Part shown: positions 5,588-40,800 of the stretch, piece by piece
Layout: each line of letters begins with the position of its first letter
Numbering within the stretch: position 1 is the first letter of the stretch
Source of the DNA: Bolinopsis microptera
Taxonomy: Eukaryota > Ctenophora > Tentaculata > Lobata > Bolinopsidae
DNA: 64,000 bases
Assembly: GCF_026151205.1 (NCBI RefSeq)
Contig: NC_087078.1
Location: 5,659,675 to 5,723,674, forward strand
Direction of reading: 5' to 3'
The notes under the pieces: generated by a model
Database searches by the model: none
Seen by the model: only the letters and a program-made list of their open reading frames with translations
What the model was told of the DNA's origin: nothing
Made by a program: the position numbers and the translations under genes

Positions 5588-5821
5588 ATGGTTTTTCTAT
5601 TTTAGGGTTTATCATTTATTTTTCAGACGATGCTGTTGTGTTGCTTTTTTAGATTACTGAAGATTTAGCGCTGTAAAAAGTTGTGCTGTCGTCGCTCTTT
5701 TAATTTTAGTATCACAATTCCTATTCATGATAACATTGCACATTTACATTACATTTAGATTGCATTGAGATTACATTTAGATTACATTTATATTACATTG
5801 CACTGTTTTGCTTGTGACCAC

Positions 5822-5916
5822 ATATTGCGTAAGCCAAATTTCGGCTATTTCAGACACAAGGCTATTGTTAGCTTTTCCAACCCCCCTCCTTTAGGCTGGC
5901 TTACGTAATATCTAAA
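5822..5916. mobile_element. short inverted-repeat element, TGGCTTACG family
   Basis: Ends are imperfect inverted repeats: ATATTGCGTAAGCCA at the left, TGGCTTACGTAATAT at the right. A related element lies at 54236-54305. Non-coding; probably a MITE. Confidence 0.5.
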
Positions 5917-6547
5917 AAACTGAAAATAAATAGCAAGCTGGTTTAAATGTTGAATATGTGATAACATCGTGATATTAGATATCAGTATTCAGTTTACTGT
6001 TTAGTGGGCGGACTTTTGTAATGTATATTATTATACAGCAGTAACAGCACTATGTATTTACTTTAGGTTTTATGTTTTAGTTTGATAATTTTTAGCTTCA
6101 TCGATCATGATAATGATGAAATACATGACTTATGCATTGAAACATACTCTATGGAAACAAATTAACACTTGTGATTTTGCAGTTCAAATAAACATATATA
6201 TATCAGCCTTCATTTTCATTCTGTTGATCATAATATTTATTTAATATGCCTAAATATCGATGTTATTTTTGAAATCGAAAAACACGATGACACTGATTTA
6301 TGATTGCTGATACTGATTTTAAAAACATTCTACACTTGTACTAGCACAAGCATTTTAAATAAATATCGTTTTATTTGGAACTCAACAGCTTTCGAAAATG
6401 TTACTCTTAATCTTACTAAAACTCCGTGCGTATCATTAGTCCGATCAGACGAACTAAAAGGGAAACTCGTTAGCTTTTCGTGTTAAAATGTGCCTAATAC
6501 CAAAATAAATCACTTTACATGCAGAACAGTAAATTCCATATTTCACG

Positions 6548-22810: not shown

Positions 22811-23686
22811 TTATAAATCAAGAGGCTTGCATATAATGAACATATTGACACGGGTGCAGAGTTGAGTCTGTACGGAACCTAGTAGTTTCAGATCCTTGTT
22901 TAACTTGCCGTACAGCAAGGTCATCCACTACTTTAGCCCGGCGAGGCACATAACTCCCTCTACAACTCCATGACAAATGTTTCATATATAGTAGCCGAGT
23001 TCACAAGTTATATCCTTGTGTTTGAGAAGAGCTCGTTAGAACTGCTTCCTTTCCCTTCAGTATCCCACAGTCTCTCGAGTTTCGTAACTGCCAGAGAACT
23101 CTCTTAAACAATTACTAGACTCGGTGATTATAAATCAAGAGGCTTGCATATAATGAACATATTGACACGGGTGCAGAGTTGAGTCTGTACGGAACCTAGT
23201 AGTTTCAGATCCTTGTTTAACTTGCCGTACAGCAAGGTCATCCACTACTTTAGCCCGGCGAGGCACATAACTCCCTCTACAACTCCATGACAAATGTTTC
23301 ATATATAGTAGCCGAGTTCACAAGTTATATCCTTGTGTTTGAGAAGAGCTCGTTAGAACTGCTTCCTTTCCCTTCAGTATCCCACAGTCTCTCGAGTTTC
23401 GTAACTGCCAGAGAACTCTCTTAAACAATTACTAGACTCGGTGATTATAAATCAAGAGGCTTGCATATAATGAACATATTGACACGGGTGCAGAGTTGAG
23501 TCTGTACGGAACCTAGTAGTTTCAGATCCTTGTTTAACTTGCCGTACAGCAAGATCATCCACTACTTTAGCCCGGCGAGGCACATAACTCCCTCTACAAC
23601 TCCATGACAAATGTTTCATATATAGTAGCCGAGTTCACAAGTTATATCCTTGTGTTTGAGAAGAGCTCGTTAGAACTGCTTCCTTA
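22811..23686. repeat. 2.75 x 317-bp tandem repeat
   Basis: Copies begin TTATAAATCAAGAGGCTTGC at 22811, 23128 and 23445, essentially identical (one substitution seen), and the last is truncated at ~23686. The array ends 13 bp downstream of the HELQ stop codon, so HELQ transcripts may end in it. Confidence 0.9.
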
Positions 23687-23698
23687 CTCAATCTAAAA

Positions 23699-26600
23699 TT
23701 ATTTTTGCCAAAAGTTTAATAAAGTTGTCACCTCATTTTGTACCTGTTTTTGTGTGAGATGTTCGATGTCGGAGGACAGGAGTATAGGTTCCGCAGCTGC
23801 CAGTTTTTGGAGTGATTTATATCCTGCTTTGTGGAGCTGCTTTGCCCGAGCCTGCAAATAATACTTAGATTTTAAACTCAAGTTGGTTAGTATCAATCAT
23901 CCAGGGTTTATCTCGCTTATTAAAAATTCAATTTGTAATTTATCTGATTTTCATTCCTGGGCCATGAAAGTTTCAAAATAATATGCAAAATATTAAAAAC
24001 AGGCGAACTAAAGATTAAGTAATCAAAAGAAGAGGTAACTACATCAAGAATTGCAACATATTCTCAGCTGATTCTAACTTGACGTTCCATACCACTAATT
24101 GGTGCAGAATTTTAGATTTAAAGAGCACAAACACTCATGACTCATCAAACAGGGAGTACAAATTTAATGGAGTCCTTTGGATCCCAAACGAAGGTCTGCC
24201 ATCCCAGGTATCTATTTCCATTGTCAATAGTATGGCGATAAAAAGGCTATAACTATAATTAAATTAAGCTACCGATAAGATTATTGGGCTTTAAAAGAAA
24301 TAGGTCCTCTTAAACAGAAATAGTCTATCAGCGTAGTAACTATAAACTCTATACAGTCAACATCTTAACCGAGAAGTTATTTTAACAAATGCCTCTCGTA
24401 GGACAATCTTCAGCTGAACAATCGTCTATCACCGCTACTAAATTCCCAATCCCAGCAACGCTCCATTCACTAACGTCTTCCAGCTTCGTATGAAACATCG
24501 TCCATCTACCTTTGCCAGCTCATCCAGCCTTTTATTCGCCGCATTGTCTCCAAGAACTTTACTCTCAATCCATTACTTCTCGTAATGATAATGACAGGGT
24601 TGAGTGCTGAGTTCAGTATTGGCAGTACAGTTCCCAGCACTGCTATAAGATAGGAGAAAGACTCATGTGGGACATATGTATTAGTGAGACTCGTAGAGAA
24701 TACAAATCCATAGTAGGCAGAATTACATACGACAAATAGGGTTGAAATGAGGATTACGGTAATGGTCACGTGACGTTGATTGGAGCTGGCTTCAAACTGA
24801 CTTGATCTGTGCAGTGATACCAGTTGGACTACACACGTGATAAAGATGATGAGGACTGGTATAAGAAAGGCTATCACCTGAGGCATAAAGATCAAAAAGA
24901 TATTGTTCTCTGCAATACTAGCGCCCATATGCAAAATCCACCGAACATACATATTAATAGCGAATTGGTTCTGAACAAGATAAAACTGATGTATATCAAG
25001 CGCAGCTAGGATTACCCACGGCACAATGTACAATATACATGCCAGTTTCACAGCACCTATCTTTATCTGGAGGAAGGGTCTTAAGATCATGACAGTCCTG
25101 GAAACAGCCAGCACTAAGTTGTAGAATACAGACGATCTGTAACTTATCTGAATGACTGTATAGAAGACAACTGTGTGTATATCTATAGAGTTTTTACCGA
25201 TCACTCCTTTAGTGACCAATAAAAAGCTACAGACTGATGTATAACCCCAACAGCAGTCAGGATATCCGCTGATGCTATCATTGTGTAGAGAAAGGGGACT
25301 AGAGAGAGTTCGCCCTTCCGATAGTAGTTGATAACGAAGATGTTCAGGGTGATGGTTATGATACTGAGTAGAATACTTGGTATGCTGGTGGTGAAGAACG
25401 GCTCCAGGGTTGACAGGAATGCTCTCCAATAGCGATCATATTCATCATAATCAGTCATCGTAACATGCGGATAGACAGATGCACTATGAACGTTAGGAAA
25501 AGCTGTGCTGTGATCAGCCATGACGCAATTTTCTGTAAATTAATACAAATTAAAGAGCTTTAAATTAAATTCAAGCCAATAAACAGTTAGGTGAATACGA
25601 AAAATTACAGCAACGCAATTTATCGATATCACGGTTTCAAAGATCAAGTTACTGGTAAGCTTCCCGTCCCGTCAATATGAGGGCTGTCGAAATACGGGTG
25701 AAAAAAGATCGGCAGAAACTTGCATATCATAAGTTTACTAACTACAAAGTTACTTATCAAAATCGATATAAAAATCACGGTTATCGATTATCGCTCGTGC
25801 GTGCCGCAAATGGCAACCTACCAATACTATGAGCCTAACTCAAACTGTAAAAAGACGAAGAACTAAACTTAGAATTTAAATGAGCAAATAGAAAAATTCT
25901 AGTCTCTACCTAACAGCTAACTATTGCATTGTTCAATGCCCTCACGTGCTTTACCTCCAGGATGGTCAATGATTAGTCGACTTTCTTTTAATTCATTTCT
26001 TTTTCTGAACAGATGTCGACCAACGACCACTGCGCCGTTCATAATTGTTTTTTAAAAGAGAAAATTTCGGGCATTATGGTTTTAAATGGTTGGGAATTAT
26101 ATTTTTATCTAGAGTATACTTACGTGTTTGCACCTGAGACCTGAACATTTAAACAGATGTCGACCAGGGATATGGTTGTAGATGGTTGTGGATGGTTGTT
26201 TTAAAAAAATATCTAGAGTAAACAAAACTCACGTGTTTGATACCAGGAATCTCAAGAATTTGAGCAAGTTCGGGAGAGCCAGCAAAGAAGAGTTTCTGTA
26301 CCAAAGCATCAAAAACAGAAGAGAGTGCCCAATAATCCGGCAACTCCTGGGTGATAGTACACTCTCAATTCATAGTAAACGGGAGAATTGCATAAATTAT
26401 AGGTACAAGTACACTCTACCGCCTAGATTTAATCAGCAGAGTCGCCTCAAAATTAAAGCTGGTGTGATAGGGAAAATACAGGGTGGCCCGAATTAACACA
26501 ATTCAGTAATCTTGAACCAAGCTGAAGCAGAGCACTGTAGCATAGGATCTGCTCACATCAACATTAATTCTCACCACACTGAACTTAAGCCAGGTGTTGC

Positions 26601-29600
26601 TTAGCAGCTCAGCGCAAAAAAACATAAATCGACTCGGAGTCGTGATACAAATAAAAGTGAACATTTCAAAATGTTAATCTTGCGATGCGCAATGTGCATA
26701 GTAGTATAGTCAGTAGTGTGTAGTGTGTACCTTGGTAAAATGAGCCAGTTTGCTGGCGTGAGATATAACAGAACTAAGAGCAGACTGTAGAGTCCCCCGA
26801 GGGATCTTGAAGAGAGCACTAACTTTCCAGGATGGTACCCCTGAGATCAGCTTGTGGAGTGCTCCTGCTACGTAGAATCTCTTGTAGGGCACTTCTTTTT
26901 CCTGTAGTAGGCCCATTAGAAAATTTGAAGCAATATAACTTGAGAATCTCAAAAATTGCTGAGACTAATTTATATGTTTTAGCTAGTTGTCGCGTTTTGA
27001 CTATCGCAAAAGAACCGTTTTAGCAAATTTTCAAATATTCCCTTGGGATAAATATATACACCAAATAAAAAGGACAGAAAAAAAAGGAATATAAAGTATA
27101 ACAAACTGTACATATTATACACTATATAATATATATACAGTATATATAATATACTGTATACATATACAGTATATATACTGACGATATCAGAGGAGTTCTG
27201 AGTGAAAGCTCTCCAGGCGAGGTAAGATTCCAGGAGGCCAGCAGCAGTGAAGGTTAGTCGGGTAACCTCGTCAAACTGGGAGAAAGCACTGAAATACATC
27301 TGCCAGTCCACGTACACGCCCCTGGTGGAGGTTAAGGGAGGTTAAAGAGCTGAAATACATCTGCCAGTCCACGTACACGCCCCTGGTGGAGGTTAAGGGA
27401 GGTTAAAGAGCTGAAATACATCTGCCAGTCCACGTACACGCCCCTGGTGGAGGTTAAGGGAGGTTAAAGCACTGAAATACATCTGCCAGTCCACGCACAC
27501 ACCCCTGATGGAGGTTAAGGGAGGTTAAAGCACTGAAATACATCTGCCAGTCCACGTACACGCCCCTGATGGAGGTTAAGGGAGGTTAAAGCACTGAAAT
27601 ACATCTGCCAGTCCACGTACACACCCCTGATGGAGGTTAAGGGAGGTTAAAGAGCTGAAATACATCTGCCAGTCCACGCACACGCCCCTGGTGGAGGTTA
27701 AGGGAGGTTAAAGAGCTGAAATACATCTGCCAGTCAACGTACACACCCCTGATGGAGGTTAAGGGAGGTTAAAGAGCTGAAATACATCTGCCAGTCCACG
27801 CACACGCCCCTGGTGGAGGTTAAGGGAGATTAAAGAGCTGAAATACATCTGCCAGTCAACGTACACGCCCCTGATGGAGGTTAAGGGAGGTTAAAGCACT
27901 GAAATACATCTGCCAGTCCACGTACACGCCCCTGATGGAGGTTAAGGGAGGTTAAAGCACTGAAATACATCTGCCAGTCCACGCACACGCCCCTGGTGGA
28001 GGTTAAGGGAGGTTAAAGAGCTGAAATACATCTGCCAGTCAACGTACACGCCCCTGATGGAGGTTAAGGGAGGTTAAAGCACTGAAATACATCTGCCAGT
28101 CCACGCACACGCCCCTGGTGGAGGTTAAGGGAGGTTAAAGAGCTGAAATACATCTGCCAGTCCACGCACACGCCCCTGGTGGAGGTTAAGGGAGGTTAAA
28201 GAGCTGAAATACATCTGCCAGTCAACGTACACACCCCTGATGGAGGTTAAGGGAGGTTAAAGCACTGAAATACATCTGCCAGTCAACGTACACACCCCTG
28301 ATGGAGGTTAAGGGAGGTAAAAGAGCTGAAATACATCTGCCAGTCAACGTACACACCCCTGATGGAGGTTAAGGGAGGTTAAAGCACTGAAATACATCTG
28401 CCAGTCAACGTACACACCCCTGATGGAGGTTAAGGGAGGTTAAAGAGCTGAAATACATCTGCCAGTCCACGCACACGCCCCTGATGGAGGTTAAGGGAGG
28501 TTAAAGCACTGAAATACATCTGCCAGTCCACGTACACGCCCCTGATGGAGGTTAAGGGAGGTTAAAGAGCTGAAATACATCTGCCAGTCCACGTACACAC
28601 CCCTGATGGAGGTTAAGGGAGGTTAAAGCACTGAAATACATCTGCCAGTCCACGTACACGCCCCTGATGGAGGTTAAGGGAGGTTAAAGCACTGAAATAC
28701 ATCTGCCAGTCCACGTACACGCCCCTGATGGAGGTTAAGGGAGGTTAAAGAGCTGAAATACATCTGCCAGTCAACGTACACACCCCTGATGGAGGTTAAG
28801 GGAGGTTAAAGCACTGAAATACATCTGCCAGTCCACGTACACGCCCCTGATGGAGGTTAAGGGAGGTTAAAGAGCTGAAATACATCTGCCAGTCAACGTA
28901 CACGCCCCTGATGGAGGTTAAGGGAGGTTAAAGCACTGAAATACATCTGCCAGTCAACGTACACACCCCTGGTGGAGGTTAAGGGAGGTTAAAGAGCTAA
29001 AATACATCTGCCAGTCAACGTACACACCCCTGATGGAGCTTAAGGGAGGTTAAAGCAATCAATCAATCAATCAAAGTTCGTTTATTTCAGTTCGCTGCTG
29101 TAGAGTATAGTGAGTCCCCCCTCCCCTCCCCTCTCCTATTTCCACCTCTCTAAACCTCTCTACACAGTGTACCAACTCACTCAACGATAGGAGGAACACA
29201 CAAGTACACCAAATGTAGATCTCCCAGTAGAACGAGGTGTCTGTTTGCTTCTCTGATTCCTTGCATTACTTTGTGTGAAATGGTAGGATTTAACGAGCTT
29301 TTGTACACTGCTTTACCAAATTGAGTAGGCTGGATCTTTCCTGGGACGGTTTGTGTTAACCTTGTCTGTTATAAATGATAATAAAAGTTGCACCATTCTG
29401 TAATAAGAAATTTAGGAATTCACATTATTCGATTATTTAAAAATGCACACAGCACAGTTTCTGATCACAGAATGCTAAATCTTAGAATTCTAACCTTCTA
29501 CCCGCTCCACGAACTTGGACTCCTGCAGGAATGTAAGAGCGGAGTCCGCTACAGTGAGACAGGTGTCGGGGGCCTGGTGGTGTAGCAGAGTCTTCTTCAT

Positions 29601-31786
29601 GAACATTCCCAGATCTGCTGAGCTCTGTATCAAACCTGTTCACAAACATACTGTATTAAATAAGTTAGAAAATCCCGATTTACCGCGGGTGTTTCTTTTC
29701 CCAAAACTCCGTGGTTTTATAAGGTTTTAAAGCCCTTACTAATGACTATGATCAACGGTATTGAGTCTGTACCGCTACTGAACTTTTTGACAGAAATCGA
29801 ATCTCAGTAATCGGTCCGTTATTGATCGCTGCTCTTCTTCCTTATTAAAGAACAAACTCCTTCGTACAGAGAACAGCTTGAAATAGAGATAAAATTAGCT
29901 TGAAAGGAAATATAGTTGACGAATTAAAAACCTGATCCGATGAGATGTAGGAGGGTAAGAGCGAGAGATTCTTCATCTAAACAACTCCTGACATCTTCAA
30001 TCTTCCCAAACACCAGCTCGTTAAGGATCTTCTTCTCTAATACACTGCCCAACAGGAAACTGGCCCCTGTGGCTGACAATCCTGGCAGATGGTTATACAT
30101 ATGTTAATACACCTATATCACATCCAGTATACTGAGAAGTTGGTTCACTGTTCAATTCTGTCCCAAAAAGTATTAAGTAATATTATTAGCAGGAGGAAGC
30201 TCGGACTACTACTTGAGAATATTTAAGTGTGCAGATACCATACAATTTTGTGCAGATAGGATTCATATCAGTTTGTTCACAAAAAATTTGCACGTGCAGT
30301 TTTTTCGGACAACATACAAACCTGTTCTACCAGCCCTGCCAACCATCTGGAGATACCGAGTTCTGGTCAAAATACTCGACCCTATCTTCACACTCCGTAT
30401 AATCACTCTGAGGTTGTGCTGTGTTATGTAGTTACAACATCGAGATGTAAAATACCAATCGAGCTAAATATAGAATGCAAACATTTAAATATTTCGAACT
30501 AATTCCAAAATCTCTCTTGCTGCAAAAATAATTACGAAAAGTACGGTACAGATGAGTGGGGTACCTAGAAGCGGGAAGGTTCACCCCTGCAGCTAATGTT
30601 GAGGTACAGCACAGAACAGAGAGAACTCCTGTGCTGAACGCTTCTTCCACCAGAACTCTCTCATCTGCTGTCAAACCGCTGTGGTGGTAGGACACACCTG
30701 GGGTAGAAGGCATTGCTGATTAAGAGAACTCTCTTAGAACTCTAAAATTTATCCGTTTCAAGTAATTGCATCTACTTGTTGTTGACGTTAGCATGCTCAA
30801 GAACTCTTGAGGCTCAGTACCTAACAAAGCACTCAAGTTGATATACAACAGCTTTGTCAGTCTCACTTGTACTACTGCTGCACAGTTTGGGGAACAAGAT
30901 CGCTAAACTCCGTTAAAAGAGTCTTCTCGGCCCAGAAAAAGGGCATTCGCGCTGCAGATAACCAATACCACCGCTATTTTTATGACAAAGATCTGAATAG
31001 CACACCTTCACACACAAAGGAAATTTTCAATAAACTAGAAGTATTAGCTTTACCGAACGTGATAGCTAAATGTATATTATGCTTAATGCACAAAGTTTAT
31101 TCTAACACTGCACCACCAAATATTATAAGAATGTTCACTGTTTCAAACTTAAACGCACCTAGAAGAGAACCTGAATTCTTTGCAGTACCATTTAACCGTT
31201 TATGTAATTCAGACAAGAGCATTTCTTACATTGGGCCTAAGTTATATAACCAAACAGTCAACATTATTAACAAGGACATAAAATATGTCACCACTTGCCT
31301 ACAAGACAAATTCCTAAATTCATTCAAGTCTACAGTCAACAAGCATGTGCTTACTGCACAAGCACATAAACCGGATGACAAGGACTGGGACAACTCAAAT
31401 TTCGTACTTTTAGAAATTTAAATAATTTGGTACAACATACGTTGATCATAATAACGAGCAACAAAACTTTAACCTCATAACAAAATATGACTATCTTCGA
31501 GCATTTTTTACAATGCTATCGACACCGCGCAATTTCACTGTCATTTACAACTTTTAAAAGATAAAAATATCACCGCGCATTCTTCAGACCATGTGTCGCT
31601 GTTCTAAATTTATGTCAAGAGATAAGAGTATTTAAAATTCTTAATAGTACTATTTAAATTTGCTAATAGCATAATCATATTTTATACATTATCAATACTT
31701 TATACATTGTGTGCATATATTTATATTTGATTGTAATTAAAGATTTTAAGGCGTTAGTGCCGAGTAATGCCTTCGGGTAGTGCTCC

Positions 31787-31826
<40 letters not shown>

Positions 31827-34800
31827 CTCACGAAATCATAAAACGCAATCACTACAATCGCTTATCAGAATTACTTAGTCAGCCAATTTTGATTTCATCC
31901 CACTGATCAAAATAGTAATATTATCGTTTGAAGCGCCTCAACTTCCAGATTATATTCTAATAACTGTGCCCTTACCAGAAGAGAGCATGTCAGAGAAAGC
32001 ATTATCCATATGACCAGTTTCCAGTTTGATGCGATCTATTAGAATAGTTCTCTTGTGCTTCATCTCATTTCCTGCGCTGTTGAAATAAATCTTGATAATA
32101 ATATACGGTTACAGAAGGAATATAGTGGCTCGGATTACGAGATAATTTCTACTTTGTATATTTCATTCATATCAAGATTCATCATGCTTTTGGTAAGGAA
32201 AACATCTTTCAGACCAACATTTTTAAAGAATGGACAGGATTGTACTAGTGAGAGACACAAACAGGTACAAACCAAGGCAAGGTTTGTACCTATTTGTGTC
32301 TCACTTACCAAGGCAGGGTGTTGGTTAACATTCGGGCTGTTGTTTCGCAGGAGTTCTTTGTTGGACAGAACACCAAAACTCGTTCTGGTAGAACTTCCTG
32401 AGATAAAATAAGATTAGGTTAGCAGATTACCAAACAGATCACATTGTTTAAATAGGATGCTATCATCTGTGAATGTGTCAATGTTAGATTCCCGGAGAAA
32501 GTAAAATTCCCGGAGAGTGGAAGACCGCCAATGTGTCCATATTCCAAAACTTTTTCTGTATTAACTCAATTTCACATTTTTGTACTAACTTTTCTTCAAT
32601 GACCAATTAGTCAGTTAACTATGGATTACATAGACGTAGAACACAATTTAGGCACTGGAAGTTAGATTTCCGGAGAAAGCATTAAAAAGCAAATGGAAAA
32701 TCTCTACTTATTCGTTAAATATAAGATAAAGTTAAGTATGACTATACTATCACCTGTACAAGTGAAGCGACACAGTCCTTGTCTAGTGTATTGGTGTTAA
32801 CAGGTGATGATAAGGGTGTGGACTGTCTCACTGCTACTAACTCTCCTTTCTTCTTATCCACCTTGAAGATCTGGGGAGACTTATTGTGAAGAAATAAAAT
32901 GAAGAAACATTGGTCAGTACATACCGCACTACAAACTATCCTCAAACAGCCCAAGGATCAGGATTTGTTGAAATTGTATCTTGATAAAAAATAAGTTCTT
33001 TTTAATGCGGATAGAAGCAACACAGCTGATGTCATTCTCTGAGATATCTTGATTCACGTACAGCTGTGGTTCGACAGTCGACACGCACGGAAGTTCGACA
33101 AATAAAGTTCGCCAGAAATCACCCCAGTCGAACTTCGGTGCTTGTCAAACCAGAGTCCAGGTAGCGTACTCTAGTTCGACAAATAGTTTCTGCTTGTGAT
33201 CCAAGGGCTATTTCCGGGTCCTTGTCATAGGATCGCAGATCAGAAATTTCAAAACGTTTCGGTAATCTTAAAAACTATTTTCTGATATCATGCAACCAGC
33301 GGTTGGAAATTTCAGAACCATTCAGTATCTTAAACAATAATCTCAGAATGTGTGTTTTCTGTCTGTCTGTCTGTCCGCGTGTAAATTCTGAGCGGCTTAA
33401 TCAAGAAAACGGTAAGAGTTACGGGGCTGGTTTTTTTCGGTAGTGCCGACAAAACTATGAGGGAGTCAAATGGTAAAGGGTTTTTAAATCGGTCGGTGGT
33501 AAGTGGTTTAATTGATCATTTTGTGACCCAAATGTAATACTAAAGTGTCAGGGGATGAGGGGAAGGGGACCTCAAGATTGCCTATCAAGTATTACAATTA
33601 GATAATAGATACGTGAGGGGCGTTCAGAATTAAATTGCAGTGTGTTTGGACTGAGCGAGTTCATACTTTCCCACCGTTTCAACTACGAAAATGTAATGTG
33701 TGTTTTCGAATATTATAATAGGCGGGTTTATACTTTTGCATTTCAACTGCGATAGTGAAGTCCCGATCGTAGGCACGGGTTACACTAGTTAAATATAATA
33801 TGGTCGACTTTTATATTATACTAAATTTGTACGTATAAAATATTCAAGTTTTATCTTAAATTGATAGGCTGAGATGAGTCTTATATTTGTGTTGCACAAA
33901 TTTAAGCAGTGGGCACCGTAGTACGTTCTCTCACATGTACCGTTTAGTTAGAACAAGTATTTTAGTACGTTTATCAACGGGTGATTACAAAACAATCAAC
34001 ATGATTTTTAAGTTAGATCAACATTCTGATGAAAATATAATACATACGAACAGAATACTTTTCAACAACTAAAAAATAAAACTAAAAAACTAACAAATAA
34101 AACTAAAAACTCACGGTATCTCCCATCTTGACATGCTCGTCGAGAGTAACTGGTCGGGGACCCCCTGTATGCTCCATGCTGCACTTCATAAACCCCGCTA
34201 TTTCCTGGTGGTTGCTCAACGTAGCCGTCATTCCGATTATACGGGGCCTGAACACAGTTCACTACAGTTATACAAGGCCTGAACACAGTTCATTACAGTT
34301 ATACGGGGCCTGAACACAGTTCATTATAACTATACGGGGCCTGAACACAGTTCATTCCGATTATACGGGGCCTGAACACAGTTCAGTACAGTTATACAGG
34401 GCCTGAACACAGTTCATTACAGTTATACGGGGCCTGAACACAGTTCATTATAACTATACGGGGCCTGAACACAGTTCATTACAGTTATACAGGGCCTGAA
34501 CACAGTTCATTACAGTTATACGGGGCCTGAACACAGTTCATTATAACTATACGGGGCCTGAACACAGTTCATTACAGTTATACAGGGCCTGAACACAGTT
34601 CATTACAGTTATACGGGGCCTGAACACAGTTCATTATAACTATACGGGGCCTGAACACAGTTCATTACAGTTATACGGGGCCTGAACACAGTTCAGTACA
34701 GTTATACAGGGCCTGAACACAGTTCAGTACAGTTATACAGGGCCTGAACACAGTTCATTACAGTTATACGGGGCCTGAACACAGTTCATTATAACTATAC

Positions 34801-37800
34801 GGGGCCTGAACACAGTTCATTACAGTTATACGGGGCCTGAACACAGTTCATTACAGTTATACGGGGCCTGAACACAGTTCAGTACAGTTATACAGGGCCT
34901 GAACACAGTTCACAACAATTATACGGGGCCTGAACACAGTTCATTATAACTATACGGGGCCTGAACACAGTTCATTACAGTTATACGGGGCCTGAACACA
35001 GTTCACTACAGTTATACAGGGCCTGAACACAGTTCATTATAACTATACGGGGCCTGAACACAGTTCACTACAGTTATACGGAGCCTGAACACAGTTCATT
35101 ACAGTTATACAGGGCCTGAACACAGTTCAATACAATTATACAGGGCCTGAACACAGTTCACTATAACTATACAGGGCCTGAACACAGTTCATTACAGTTA
35201 TACAGTTATACGGAGCCTGAACACAGTTCATTACAGTTATACAGGGCCTGAACACAGTTCATTACAGTTATACAGGGCCTGAACACAGTTCATTACATTT
35301 ATACAGGGCCTGAACACAGTTCACTATAACTATACGGGGCCTGAACACAGTTCATTACAGTTATACAGTTATACGGAGCCTGAATACAGTTCACTACAGT
35401 TATACAGGGCCTGAACACAGTTCATTCCGATTATACGGGGCCTGAACACAGTTCACTACAGTTATACAGGGCCTGAACACAGTTCATTATAACTATACGG
35501 GGCCTGAACACAGTTCACAACAGTTATACGGGGCCTGAACACAGTTCACAACAATTATACGGGGCCTGAACACAGTTCTCTACAGTTATACGGGGCCTGA
35601 ACACAGTTCACTACAGTTATACGGGGCCTGAACACAGTTCATTACAGTTATACAGGGCCTGAACACAGTTCACTACAGTTATACAGGGCCTGAACACAGT
35701 TCACTACAGTTATACAGGGCCTGAACACAGTTCTCTACAGTAATACGGGGCCTGAACACAGTTCATTACAATTATACGGGGCCTGAACACAGTTCATTAC
35801 AGTTATACGGGCCTGAAAACAGTTCACTACAACTATACGGGGCCTGAACAGTAACACAGTTCTCATTACTATTATAAAGGCCTGAACACAGTTCACTACA
35901 GTTTGTGTCCGATCATTTAAAATGGCTATTATTCCAATTTAGGGGGGCCAAAAGTCAGTACACATTTGCATACGTTGGTGATTTCTCAATTGCTGAGTGC
36001 CCTATTGAAATAGTTCTTTATAGTACAACTTGCTGTTAGATCAATCATTCGAGGAATACATCAAATCAAATAACATTGATGTTCATTTTTTCCGAATGAA
36101 CCGTCATTTTCGTTTTTAGATCTTTTATATGATTGGGTCCACAGTTAAATTGTAATGCATTGGATTGTGCTGGCCTTTCTTTTCCCGGTTGTTCTCATTT
36201 TAGTGAGACAGCTTTGCTTTTAGTTTTTCCGCAGTCAATTTGGTTTCATTGGTTCAACTTACTAGGATATGTTTTTTGTCTCGATTGGTATGTCACTGTA
36301 CTACCTTTTATTTTTCCTACAATAAATTGTTTCTGCTGCTACTTAAATTAGTGTGGTTTATGATAAAATATAATTTAATTTTGTCTAAGTTGCCTTTTTG
36401 AGTTACACTTTGCTCACATCACTCACAGTCAACCGCTCTGACATGGTTAACCACCTTCATTGTGTTCATTGGTTAATCATATACGCGGGATATAAATACC
36501 TAATTTCATTCTAGTTGATCAGATAACCTAGATATTGAGCATAAAGAGTTGGTGGGGGGGGGGGGGGGGGCATAAACCTCATAAATATACATTTTAAAAA
36601 TAAAGAAAATACTACGAATCATTTCTACGTAGAGACCATTGAGGCACAGTTTTTGAAAGATGCATTTATTTATCGCTCATTTTTGTCATTGCACTTGAGA
36701 TAAAAGAAGGTGCACCCAACGCATCACACCTATTCAAATTGTCAATAAATTCGTTGTATCGGAAGATAAAGTTCATTTATGGTCACACAAGGATGGGATG
36801 GTTATACCTGCTCCTGCAGATAATTCTGGTCCTCCTTCTACCTGCCTTGGGATCACTTCCACCGCCAACAAGAGCGGGAACTCTGGAAAAGAACAGTTTG
36901 ATCGATTCCAATATCACCGGAATGACTAAAGAGAATGACCGTTCACAGTATGTTAAAGACCGCATTAAAGGACTGATGAAAGAACATGTTAAAGACCCGA
37001 TGAAATCATGCTATCAGCTACATGAGGTGGTCTGCTGTGATGATCCGATCAACCAGTTTCCTGCTGATTCCTTGGAACAATGTGAACAGTACTGCCAGTT
37101 TTCTGACCACTGCAACTACTTAGTATACAAATCCTATACTAATATGTGCACCTTGCTCAAGAATCTTCCAGCTCCAACTAAAAACGTGTGGTCCACCATT
37201 GGGAATTTTACTTGTGTTAGATCTGTACAAGGAGCACTTGCACTTGACCGGAAAAATCATTCAATGGTGGAATGGTTCGTAATGGTAGATGGGAAGAAAA
37301 AGTTGGAAGTCCTGATCACAAATGGAGACACGGGGAAATGTCTAGGAGTTGATAAGACTTGGAATCTGAAGTGGGGAGCATGTTTGGACATGTCACTTTG
37401 GATTGTGAGGTTGATGAACCCCAATTCGCCTGAACATGTATCTATCGAACATAAAATATCTGGAAAGTGTATGGAGGTCTTACAAGATGGTTTTACAGTT
37501 ACAGCCGTTAATCTCACAAATTGCTTAAGAAGAAGTGATGCACAACAACTTGTGATTATTCCATTCAAGATAATACCAAATCCCACGATGGAGAAATATT
37601 TATTGGGAAAACCTTTATGGACATTGACACTGACCTATGTTGACATGTATGATGATTTGAACAGCATATATTTGGAGAGCATATACTTATGTTTACACTG
37701 CAACGAAACCTTACAAAACCTAGCAATCGAACCAGTTGTAGAGTACCGAGGACCATGCAACAAACATATGGACCCGATGAAAATAAAAAACGGAAAGGTA

Positions 37801-40800
37801 GTGAAAAACTCATCAGTACCATTCTACCTACCCGGAAGTAACATCACTGTGGCATGTAATCCCGGATACGAGGCTAGGGAGCACAACAACGCCACTACTT
37901 ACCAGTTCACCTGTCTCAACAACTTTATCAAGCCACCGCCGTGCCAAGGACTGGAAAACACTGCTTCTAGCTATTGCTTTGCAACAAAAACCGGTCATGG
38001 AATATTGTTTCCTACCTTCATTCTGATAAATCTTCTGTTTTGAGTTCAACAATTTAAGAAAGCTTTTAATCTAAGGATGACAGTTCATCTTGGCCTTATT
38101 TAGCATCAATACGACTTTAGTATAACAGCATTATTGCCATGGGCTGTACTTTAACGTTATTATTTACACTAGCTGTCATGATTTTCGATAGAAAGAAAGC
38201 GCTTTATTTATAGTTTTGATGTTAACATTCTGGGTTCGAAAATACACAAAAGCCTGTTTAAAGAATTAAAATTTCGATGCATTATTTATAGACTATAACG
38301 GACATTATTTATTATTTACGCTTGCTTACTGGGCCGCGCTCAGCCTGTCATTCCGCCAAATCTTTATATAATGTTTATGAACATAATAGCCTGGGGTCCC
38401 CAGGTAAACGCTTGCTCGCACAAGATTTCATTTATTCTATCAGTTGTTGTAAATTGCTGTCACAATTTTTAATTGGAGTTGGAAGAAAGCGCTTAAATTT
38501 TAGTTTAGATAACATTCTGGGCGCGAAAATACACAACATTCAAGTCAAAGAATTTAATTCAACATCTACTGAACCTAATTCAATCCGATTAGAATTAATT
38601 TTCACGAACCTAATTATTCATGCAAGGGGTTGGACCGTTAAAATTACGATCTTAAAGACATATTTTTTCCATGCACTACCACTTCAGATATTTTTTTGGT
38701 TTCACTATATTATACTAATAATTGAATCAAATGGGTACAGATTACAGAAATTAGTCGGGTTTCACCAAAAAAAGGCTAGAATATACAATTATTCACCAAA
38801 ACTAAAACGTACCCTGATTTCAATGACAGCAGTTTAGTCAGACAGGTCTCGAGGATAGCCCCTCTGTAACCGTCACCTATCATATGAATCTCATCCACTA
38901 CAACTAATCCTAGTTCACTGCATCGCCCCTCTTCGTACAGGGAGTTGAACAAGGAGTTTGCCTGTGTGGCAGGGGGTTCAAGTTTGCGACTTTCCGAGTA
39001 TTTTTAGAGTTCGACATTTCACATGTTCAATCATACAATACATATTTATGTATAGAAATGACATGTTTTACGAAGAAATAACATAAATTACTTTTTCGAT
39101 GGTTGCGACGTAAACAGCGCGTTTATTCCTGCGTTTCCTAGGAGGGAACCTGCCCCTGCTGCCAGCATACCTTTCCAAACCAAAGGAGAAGTGTTCAGCA
39201 AACTCCGCCAGTTCTCTCACCTAAAATGTGGGTAGATAGTAAGTCTAAGAGATTTTATTTAGAAAGTCAATACTTTTTAGTATAGCTGAGCTCGGGTATT
39301 TGTCTCCGAGAGATCCTTCCATAAATGGAATAAACTTTTCCTTTTGTGTTCCAACTACTTTATCTATTCATAGGTATTACGGAGGGGGGAGGGAGTAAAA
39401 ATTGCTAAAATATTGATTACGTAATATTATGTGAACGACCCCTAAGAGCTTTGTGTTTGATTTACTTGATCAAACCGATAAATTGCCGTGCTGACAGTTC
39501 TTTTCTAAATCAACTCGAATCAAAGGTGAAAATATCAGTACTTTTTCCTCCACAAGAGCAACGTAAGGTAGAACAAGAAGAGCATCAGTGCAGCGCGTTA
39601 GTAGAGCGTTAAGAAGTAGCAGTTCCCCAACCAGAGTCTTCCCGCCAGATGTGGGGCACGTGACAATGTGGTTACCTGGGAATCACGTGACAATGTGGTT
39701 ACCTGGGTATCACGTGGTTTATGGTTGTCTTGGCAACAAGTTTTAATCGAAAAGTTTTCTCTTTACAACATGCAGTATATAGTTGCTGGAAGAAATTCTG
39801 TCACATCTGTGAAATTTCGGTGATAGCAAAAATATATTAATTTCATCTCATTGGTACCATAAATTGTTGTTAGCGAAGAAAAAACGGTCAGAAGAATACA
39901 GTAACAAGGAGAGTCAAAAAGAGTCCTACCTCCAGAGCGGAGACAAGCAGACACAGTCTTCTGTTGCCACGGATACAGTGATTTTATACCCCGGATCTTA
40001 TCTATCAACTTAAAGACCTCCTCCGGGACACCCAGCCTCACCGTCTCGTCACTTTTAGAAGAGTACGGACTCATTAGGCCCGTGCTGTACAGCTGTCTCT
40101 GTGTGCCTCCTTTCATGGGCGTGAAGAGGAAAGAACTGCTGAATGAGTCTGATATGTCCAGCTGAGGGGACTGTTTTGGTTGTTTTGGTGTGGCCGGGGG
40201 TTTGGTTTGTTCTAGAGATGAGTCTGAGCTGGTTGTGTGAGAGCTGGAAAACAGTGTGGGGCTTTCTTTATCCAGCTGTTTGACTCTAGTAGGTACAGCT
40301 CGTATTGGGGTGGTCTCTAGTCTCTTGATTTTCTTGTCGGAGTGTTGTAATGACGGTGCCGTTTTTGTGTTTTCTGGAGTTCTATCTATGCTCTTAGAGT
40401 TTTTAACCGCCTTAAGGACATCAGCTGAGGTGTTTGTTTCGGGAGTTTTTTCCCTGGAACTATTGTTATTCTGATGTGGAGAGGAGGACTGACTTAGTCG
40501 GGAGAGTTTTGAAAGTGGTGATCTCGAAGGGGTCTGGTGCGAGATTGGTGATCGGGCTCCGGTTTGAGAGAGATTCTTGTTTGCAATTGGAGACTTGAAC
40601 TTCATTTCTGAGGGATTAATTATGATATCTTTTGTGATTTAGATTACCTTGGCTCTGGTCGGAACAGATTTGTTTCAGTACGACATAAGGACCCTTGATG
40701 ATATGATGAAATACACGTCATGTTGATTCAATCAAAATGGATCTAAAGAATTTGTAAACATATTTGAAGAGCCAAAATTGATTAAGTTTCTGGTCAAATA

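Follow-up and report, generated by a model that had tools for sequence, protein, structure and literature searches.

How does a gene come to carry dozens of near-identical copies of one of its own splice acceptors, and how are they tolerated? The question is raised by a stretch of 64,000 nucleotides from the ctenophore Bolinopsis microptera (contig NC_087078.1, positions 5,659,675 to 5,723,674; hereafter the window, numbered from its first letter), in which an intron of a HELQ-type helicase gene ends in a long array of 31-bp tandem repeats. This array is very probably a splice-boundary minisatellite, or 'mirage', in which a short segment spanning the acceptor was duplicated in tandem, expanded and has been tolerated as intron.

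The array (34228 to 35902, minus strand, its far edge placed by eye) consists of 52-53 head-to-tail copies of the 3' end of the intron joined to the start of the exon. With 11 intron bases and up to 20 exon bases, each unit spans the intron-exon boundary. Tandem Repeats Finder (TRF) detects it as a single array (34237-35850, period 31, 51.6 copies). On the minus strand, the acceptor motif CTGTGTTCAG is found 52 times at no more than two mismatches, counting the genuine acceptor (34248/34247) and with a single mismatch in two of the 52; one extra degenerate copy lies within an irregular unit of 69 bases, in keeping with the 'about 53' copies of the initial annotation. Compared with the genuine 21 bases, CTGTGTTCAG|GCCCCGTATAA, 18 of the 52 copies are identical, 29 differ by one base, usually GCCCT for GCCCC, or GTATAG, three differ by two bases and two by seven. 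That the unit reproduces the exon boundary, as first proposed, thus holds within two mismatches for 50 of the 52. Of 50 spacings between consecutive strict matches, 46 are exactly 31 bases, and the 46 standard 31-mers represent 18 distinct sequences with a mean identity to their consensus of 94.0%. In the looser count the acceptor core shows only two mismatches over 520 positions; among the strict matches its invariance is built in, as the strict pattern required the core. The interior units are homogenised and the edge units diverged, those at the distal edge including irregular ones of 69 and 30 bases (assessed by eye). As for a higher-order repeat, identities of 0.901-0.923 between units at lags 1-9 reveal no clear period.

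The genuine boundary is the last copy of the array (34228-34258, minus strand), with the exon starting at 34247, and the other copies run 5' into the intron. The identity between array and boundary is not due to chance, since the best match to the first 21 bases of the unit outside the array is only 16/21 in the 64-kb window. In the genome (264.65 Mb) the exact 21-mer occurs 18 times, always within positions 34237-35792 of the window, including the genuine boundary. Rare units were also said to hold exact exon bases, and indeed ATTCCGATTATACGGGGCC is present at three places of the window, once in the exon, at 34230, and once in each of two array units, at 34354 and 35424. All 20 exon bases GCCCCGTATAATCGGAATGA are kept by two array units; the others have ACTGTAATGA, GTTATAATGA or similar sequences in the second half.

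The placement of this boundary rests on an acceptor motif, on reading frame and on homology. The exon-proximal CTGTGTTCAG (34248 to 34257, minus strand) precedes an exon of 133 nucleotides (34115 to 34247, minus strand) whose product ends in HVKMGDT. The intron of about 4.6 kb (34248 to 38812, minus strand), with the array at its 3' end, begins with the donor AGG^GTACGT at 38812, which scores 8.2 with the genome-derived matrices (109 modelled introns) used for all donors and acceptors in this work. Upstream lies the 3' part of the previous HELQ-type exon (38813 to 38952, minus strand), which has a DEAD match just below the cut-off. The two exons join in frame, from TCA GG^GTACGT (38812) to CTGTGTTCAG^G CCC CGT ATA ATC GGA ATG ACG (34247), and the joined peptide matches the DNA polymerase theta helicase (E value 3.5e-14), Brr2 and Hel308 in PDB across the join; in the alignment with POLQ, the latter has a 15-residue insert just before it. 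The exon boundary had therefore been placed correctly, and the peptide at the join is a HELQ/POLQ-type helicase motif. As the exon codes for a conserved helicase motif, it is the source and the array is the copy; the reverse, an exon start derived from the array, is ruled out on the same ground.

The 31-bp array is not the only one of its kind in this gene. Another, of 61 bp and 29 copies (27289 to 29055, minus strand), spans a likely acceptor, CCTCCACCAG^GGGCGTG, with an exon start at 27321. It repeats CCTCCACCAG^GGGCGTGTACGTGGACTGGCAGATGTATTTCAGTGCTTT, with ATTGCTTTAACC at its intron edge and AGTGCTTTCTCC at its exon edge, and copies of the 6-bp direct repeat TGCTTT flank its duplicated segment. 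The acceptor scores 6.8 and joins in frame to an open frame with a weak likely donor at 29180 (1.2). A search of Pfam with the exon at this array returned no family match; judging by similarity, this exon presumably belongs to HELQ. The initial annotation regarded the two arrays as the same kind of event happening twice in one gene, with entirely different units. This is borne out by their sequences, as the best local alignment between the units scores 8.0, a value equalled by 99 of 300 shuffles. A common origin of the 31- and 61-bp units was discarded because their similarity is no higher than that of shuffles, and a separate origin of the two arrays is supported by this comparison. A third acceptor-spanning array, missed earlier, is much smaller (27 bp x 2.2; 39657 to 39716, minus strand) and spans the acceptor of an exon that starts at 39675 and joins in frame. 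It repeats TTCCCAG^GTAACCACATTGTCACGTG, and here the duplicated segment is bounded on either side by the direct repeat CACGTG.

We propose that the 31-bp array arose when a tandem duplication of 31 bp, comprising the last 11 bases of the intron and the first 20 of the exon, formed across the 3' splice junction. The duplication would have ended within a short direct repeat, as in the other two HELQ arrays; here the ends have TGA in common (GTGA^ACTG and AATGA^CGG). What the three would share is the tandem duplication of a small segment bounded by short direct repeats that chanced to lie on either side of an acceptor. Slippage or unequal exchange would then have enlarged the array until it held about 52 copies. 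A correct messenger RNA would result only from use of the exon-proximal acceptor, each upstream copy becoming intron that is spliced out in vivo. Since the upstream copies would be removed with the intron, the array would be nearly neutral and would need no function, and nothing suggests that it has one for HELQ.

Several observations weigh against this scenario or parts of it. Each of the three HELQ arrays has short direct repeats on either side of its duplicated segment, yet three bases (TGA) are weak evidence for seeding, and among the arrays of our genome sample, described below, the seed repeat varies from 0 to about 6 bp by eye. Moreover, the exon sequence at ATCGGAATGA is not preserved in 49 of 51 array units; the acceptor core, by contrast, is nearly constant. 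This divergence can reflect the spread of a variant, or an older imperfect repeat of the intron. Two further points, both on the frequency of junction-spanning arrays, are taken up with the genome sample.

If the upstream copies are intron, the spliceosome must pass over many acceptors that look better than the one it needs. The exon-proximal acceptor scores 6.0, with only 11 of the 109 modelled acceptors lower, and 41 of the 50 upstream array acceptors outscore it (median of the array, 7.7). The choice matters, as 49 of the 51 acceptors tested lead to a stop within the exon. The exceptions are the genuine acceptor and the next one upstream, which adds 31 nucleotides and shifts the frame. Either some rule directs the choice to the exon-proximal site, possibly exon definition or a branch point provided by the last unit, or much of the transcript is lost. 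The latter could be turned to use if the array were a regulatory decoy whose dozens of acceptors tune HELQ output by unproductive splicing, to a degree set by the length of the array. The scores and the stops just described fit such a role, as does the 61-bp array, where 20 of 28 upstream acceptors outscore the genuine one. However, similar arrays occur in unrelated genes, and splicing is reportedly undisturbed by the mirages of amphioxus (PMC3087553), which makes a decoy very unlikely. The initial annotation also envisaged cryptic micro-exons, as standard units have a GT five bases after the AG, and each unit could then be a micro-exon, AG|GCCCC|GTATAA. Of the GTATAA-type sites, 54 in all, 52 closely follow an acceptor. 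The scores of the 54 (median -1.3, best -1.0) are far below those of all modelled donors, the lowest of which is 4.5, and the best of the 225 GTs in the array region reaches 2.2; micro-exons are therefore unlikely on this ground. Low scores alone are not proof of disuse, because the quality of the sites played a part in the choice of the 109 donors, and the helicase gene itself has two weak donors, that of the 133-nucleotide exon (ACC^GTGAGT at 34114, 3.7) and the likely donor upstream of the 61-bp array (1.2). A 5-nucleotide exon would nevertheless shift the frame, and we give this possibility hardly any credence. An array of micro-exons, with a usable donor downstream of each acceptor, is thus not predicted by the donor scores. 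Nor does the unit resemble a recursive (ratchet) splice-site array, as AG|GCCCCGT has no GT directly after the AG.

Are splice junctions, then, preferred birthplaces of minisatellites, for example through DNA damage inflicted at splice sites during transcription or because only those exon duplications that are spliced out are tolerated? The initial annotation had proposed a comparison of junction overlap with random placement, and we ran it on a sample of the genome. Seven families (myosin, TCP1, kinesin, SNF2, MCM and two dynein families) gave 356 exon matches, 280 of which were used, in 68 hand-chosen stretches around multi-exon genes, or 66 after merging two adjoining pairs (271,466 bases). 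The 76 omitted matches were mostly single-exon, near-duplicate or widely spread, and a kinase search, which yielded mostly single-frame genes, contributed none of its 136 matches. Out of 167 modelled pairs of neighbouring exons, we retained 109 with a score above 4; both the matrices and the null therefore rest on the better-looking introns. Under the null, the first unit of each array was placed at random, exon-only units being excluded. TRF found 158 arrays of period at least 8 in the sample. Among those of period at least 15, 4/31 span a junction of the 109 modelled introns, against 3.39 expected (P 0.45), and the number of comparable arrays thus fits random seeding. Restricting the count to at least three copies gave 3/11 against 1.63 expected (P 0.185), with the same counts in another cut, and the remaining cuts gave 4/44 against 3.87 and 4/18 against 2.93. 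In a TRF-free approach, we counted 14-mers recurring within 1.5 kb. Those with a junction at their centre do so in 5 of 218 cases; in exons the figure is 11 of 1744 positions, and in introns it is 148 of 2834. One of the five at junctions stems from a duplicated and diverged exon, not from an array. Junctions are thus intermediate between exons and introns, and not enriched.

The two points announced above are those that speak for a preference for junctions. In the cut with period at least 20 and at least eight copies, junction-spanning arrays number 3/7, where 1.14 would be expected (P 0.048, uncorrected, and one of six cuts). In HELQ, three arrays span acceptors against about 0.7 expected, by a hand estimate from intron lengths that covers these three, in a gene picked for having such arrays. 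Set against the agreement between observed and expected numbers for arrays of period at least 15, and against the recurrence of 14-mers, rarer at junctions than in introns, a preference for junctions seems unlikely. In our sample, junction-spanning arrays are about as common as chance predicts, a result that, given the small sample, is compatible with a twofold enrichment. A special targeting of junctions is accordingly not upheld, and arrays at both donors and acceptors of unrelated genes speak in the same sense. A bolder proposal would be that large minisatellites favour junctions in this ctenophore lineage, that boundary mirages continually drive the growth of introns and occasionally their gain, and that the spliceosome picks one exon-proximal site among dozens that are equal or stronger. 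We consider this combination unlikely, and retain as by far the best explanation an acceptor-spanning minisatellite that expanded and was tolerated.

The junction-spanning arrays of the sample deserve a description of their own. At donors they are found in stretches L014 (33 bp x 52), L017 (53 x 2), L020 (40 x 22.1, 100% match) and L044 (65 x 12), and at acceptors in L012 (49 x 7), L013 (about 23 bp, about 23 copies; we set the unit by eye to 23, TRF having given 109) and L014 (26 x 112, with 3 exon bases). The host genes encode kinesins (L012, L013, L014, L017), a myosin (L020) and a dynein (L044). The acceptor arrays of L012 and L014 (26 bp x 112) and the donor array of L020 lie outside the 109 introns and so are absent from the null counts. 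Not scored as junction-spanning were the degenerate arrays of L008 and L019, and those of L004, L023 and L055, whose edges lie no more than a few bases from the junction. In the kinesin gene of L014 (G000:C12:14427700-14436000), the unit of the donor-spanning array repeats the exon codons for INTSLSELG, and that of the acceptor-side array, TTACTTGTAG|GTAGAT, has the arrangement AG|GT and is recursive-splice-like. The donor-spanning array of the myosin-type gene in L020 (G000:C2:3174000-3179400), with its perfect match over 885 bp, either is of very recent origin, has been strongly homogenised or reflects an assembly artefact. In L013 (G000:C13:6730600-6737400; 5717-6248 in gene orientation), the unit ...TTTTCAG|GAG|GTAACA places an acceptor and a donor-like GT three bases apart, and judging by this arrangement L013 is perhaps a better micro-exon candidate than HELQ. 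In the kinesin gene of L004 (G000:C12:14832900-14837000), an exon start together with its acceptor reappears 158 bp upstream, giving two diverged copies outside the TRF list; this is the duplication found among the recurring 14-mers.

As for the host gene, its collinear exons carry helicase motifs of the Hel308/POLQ/HELQ group, which identify it as a HELQ-type Ski2-like helicase. It is a single locus genome-wide at comparable identity. We presume that the label HELQ rather than POLQ is appropriate, from similarity and from the presence of a separate long POLQ-like open frame at C5:11642099. Nine pieces of the helicase region were compared with Pfam. Matches to Helicase_C or POLQ_helical exceed the cut-off in two of them, and matches to DEAD fall slightly short of it in another two; a fifth piece shows weak matches only, and the other four show none; Hel308 models score well below their full-length cut-offs. 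Other features accompany the gene. On the opposite strand, the array-bearing intron contains a 466-residue open frame (36643-38043, plus strand) with PAN and Sushi matches below the cut-offs, perhaps a nested gene for a secreted protein. Elsewhere in the gene region, an open frame of 198 residues (30825-31421, plus strand) is possibly the remnant of a mobile element. Finally, an array of 317 bp x 2.8 (22811-23685, 99% match) starts about 14 bp past the last helicase open frame, which ends at 23699, and is therefore in or near the 3' untranslated region.

Tandem units across splice boundaries were described as mirages in amphioxus, in Adh3 and in the globin genes BflGb6 and BflGb9. Either boundary or both can be involved there and unit length varies, reverse transcription-polymerase chain reaction suggests undisturbed splicing, and a model of intron gain was proposed (PMC3087553). 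Tandem repeats over splice sites of PGBD5 have been likened to mirages (PMC3902484). The 31-bp array shares the mirage features that can be read from DNA: as in amphioxus, the units span the boundary, the cluster has the genuine boundary at its exon end, and many copies carry splice signals (PMC3087553). The scale differs: the array has 52 copies and one in L014 has 112, whereas 3 and 6 units were reported for BflGb6 (PMC3087553). In human segmental duplications, variable internal tandem repeats likewise alter gene structure through minisatellite growth at exon-intron boundaries; they lengthen exons or introns or make putative new introns, whereas the HELQ copies sit in an existing intron (PMC2812944). 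Unlike the mirages of cephalochordates, the present array belongs to a ctenophore. Glutamate receptors of the genome give a mixed picture on this point: a piece of one (L071) has the ctenophore receptors ML032222a and then 4zdm as its closest solved relatives, and the best identity to the ML032222a piece, 81%, suggests a species near Mnemiopsis; vertebrate-type kainate receptors, however, come first for L071 and L069 as a whole, and delta-1 for the L069 piece. In intron gain by tandem genomic duplication, duplicated splice signals reportedly let the spliceosome discard duplicated exon sequence. The HELQ array differs in enlarging an intron, and nothing here shows a new one. The idea of intron gain by duplication is credited to Rogers in the amphioxus study (PMC3087553).

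Searches for ctenophore papers on minisatellites, or on tandem repeats together with splice sites, returned none on the topic as judged by title, the search for 'mirage' being restricted to amphioxus. The kind is known from amphioxus, and its occurrence in a ctenophore may be new. Our findings suggest that mirages are apparently not confined to amphioxus, and they provide a rough rate of boundary mirages against a fair null. They also point to the HELQ gene as a natural test of how the spliceosome chooses one acceptor among about 50 near-identical ones.

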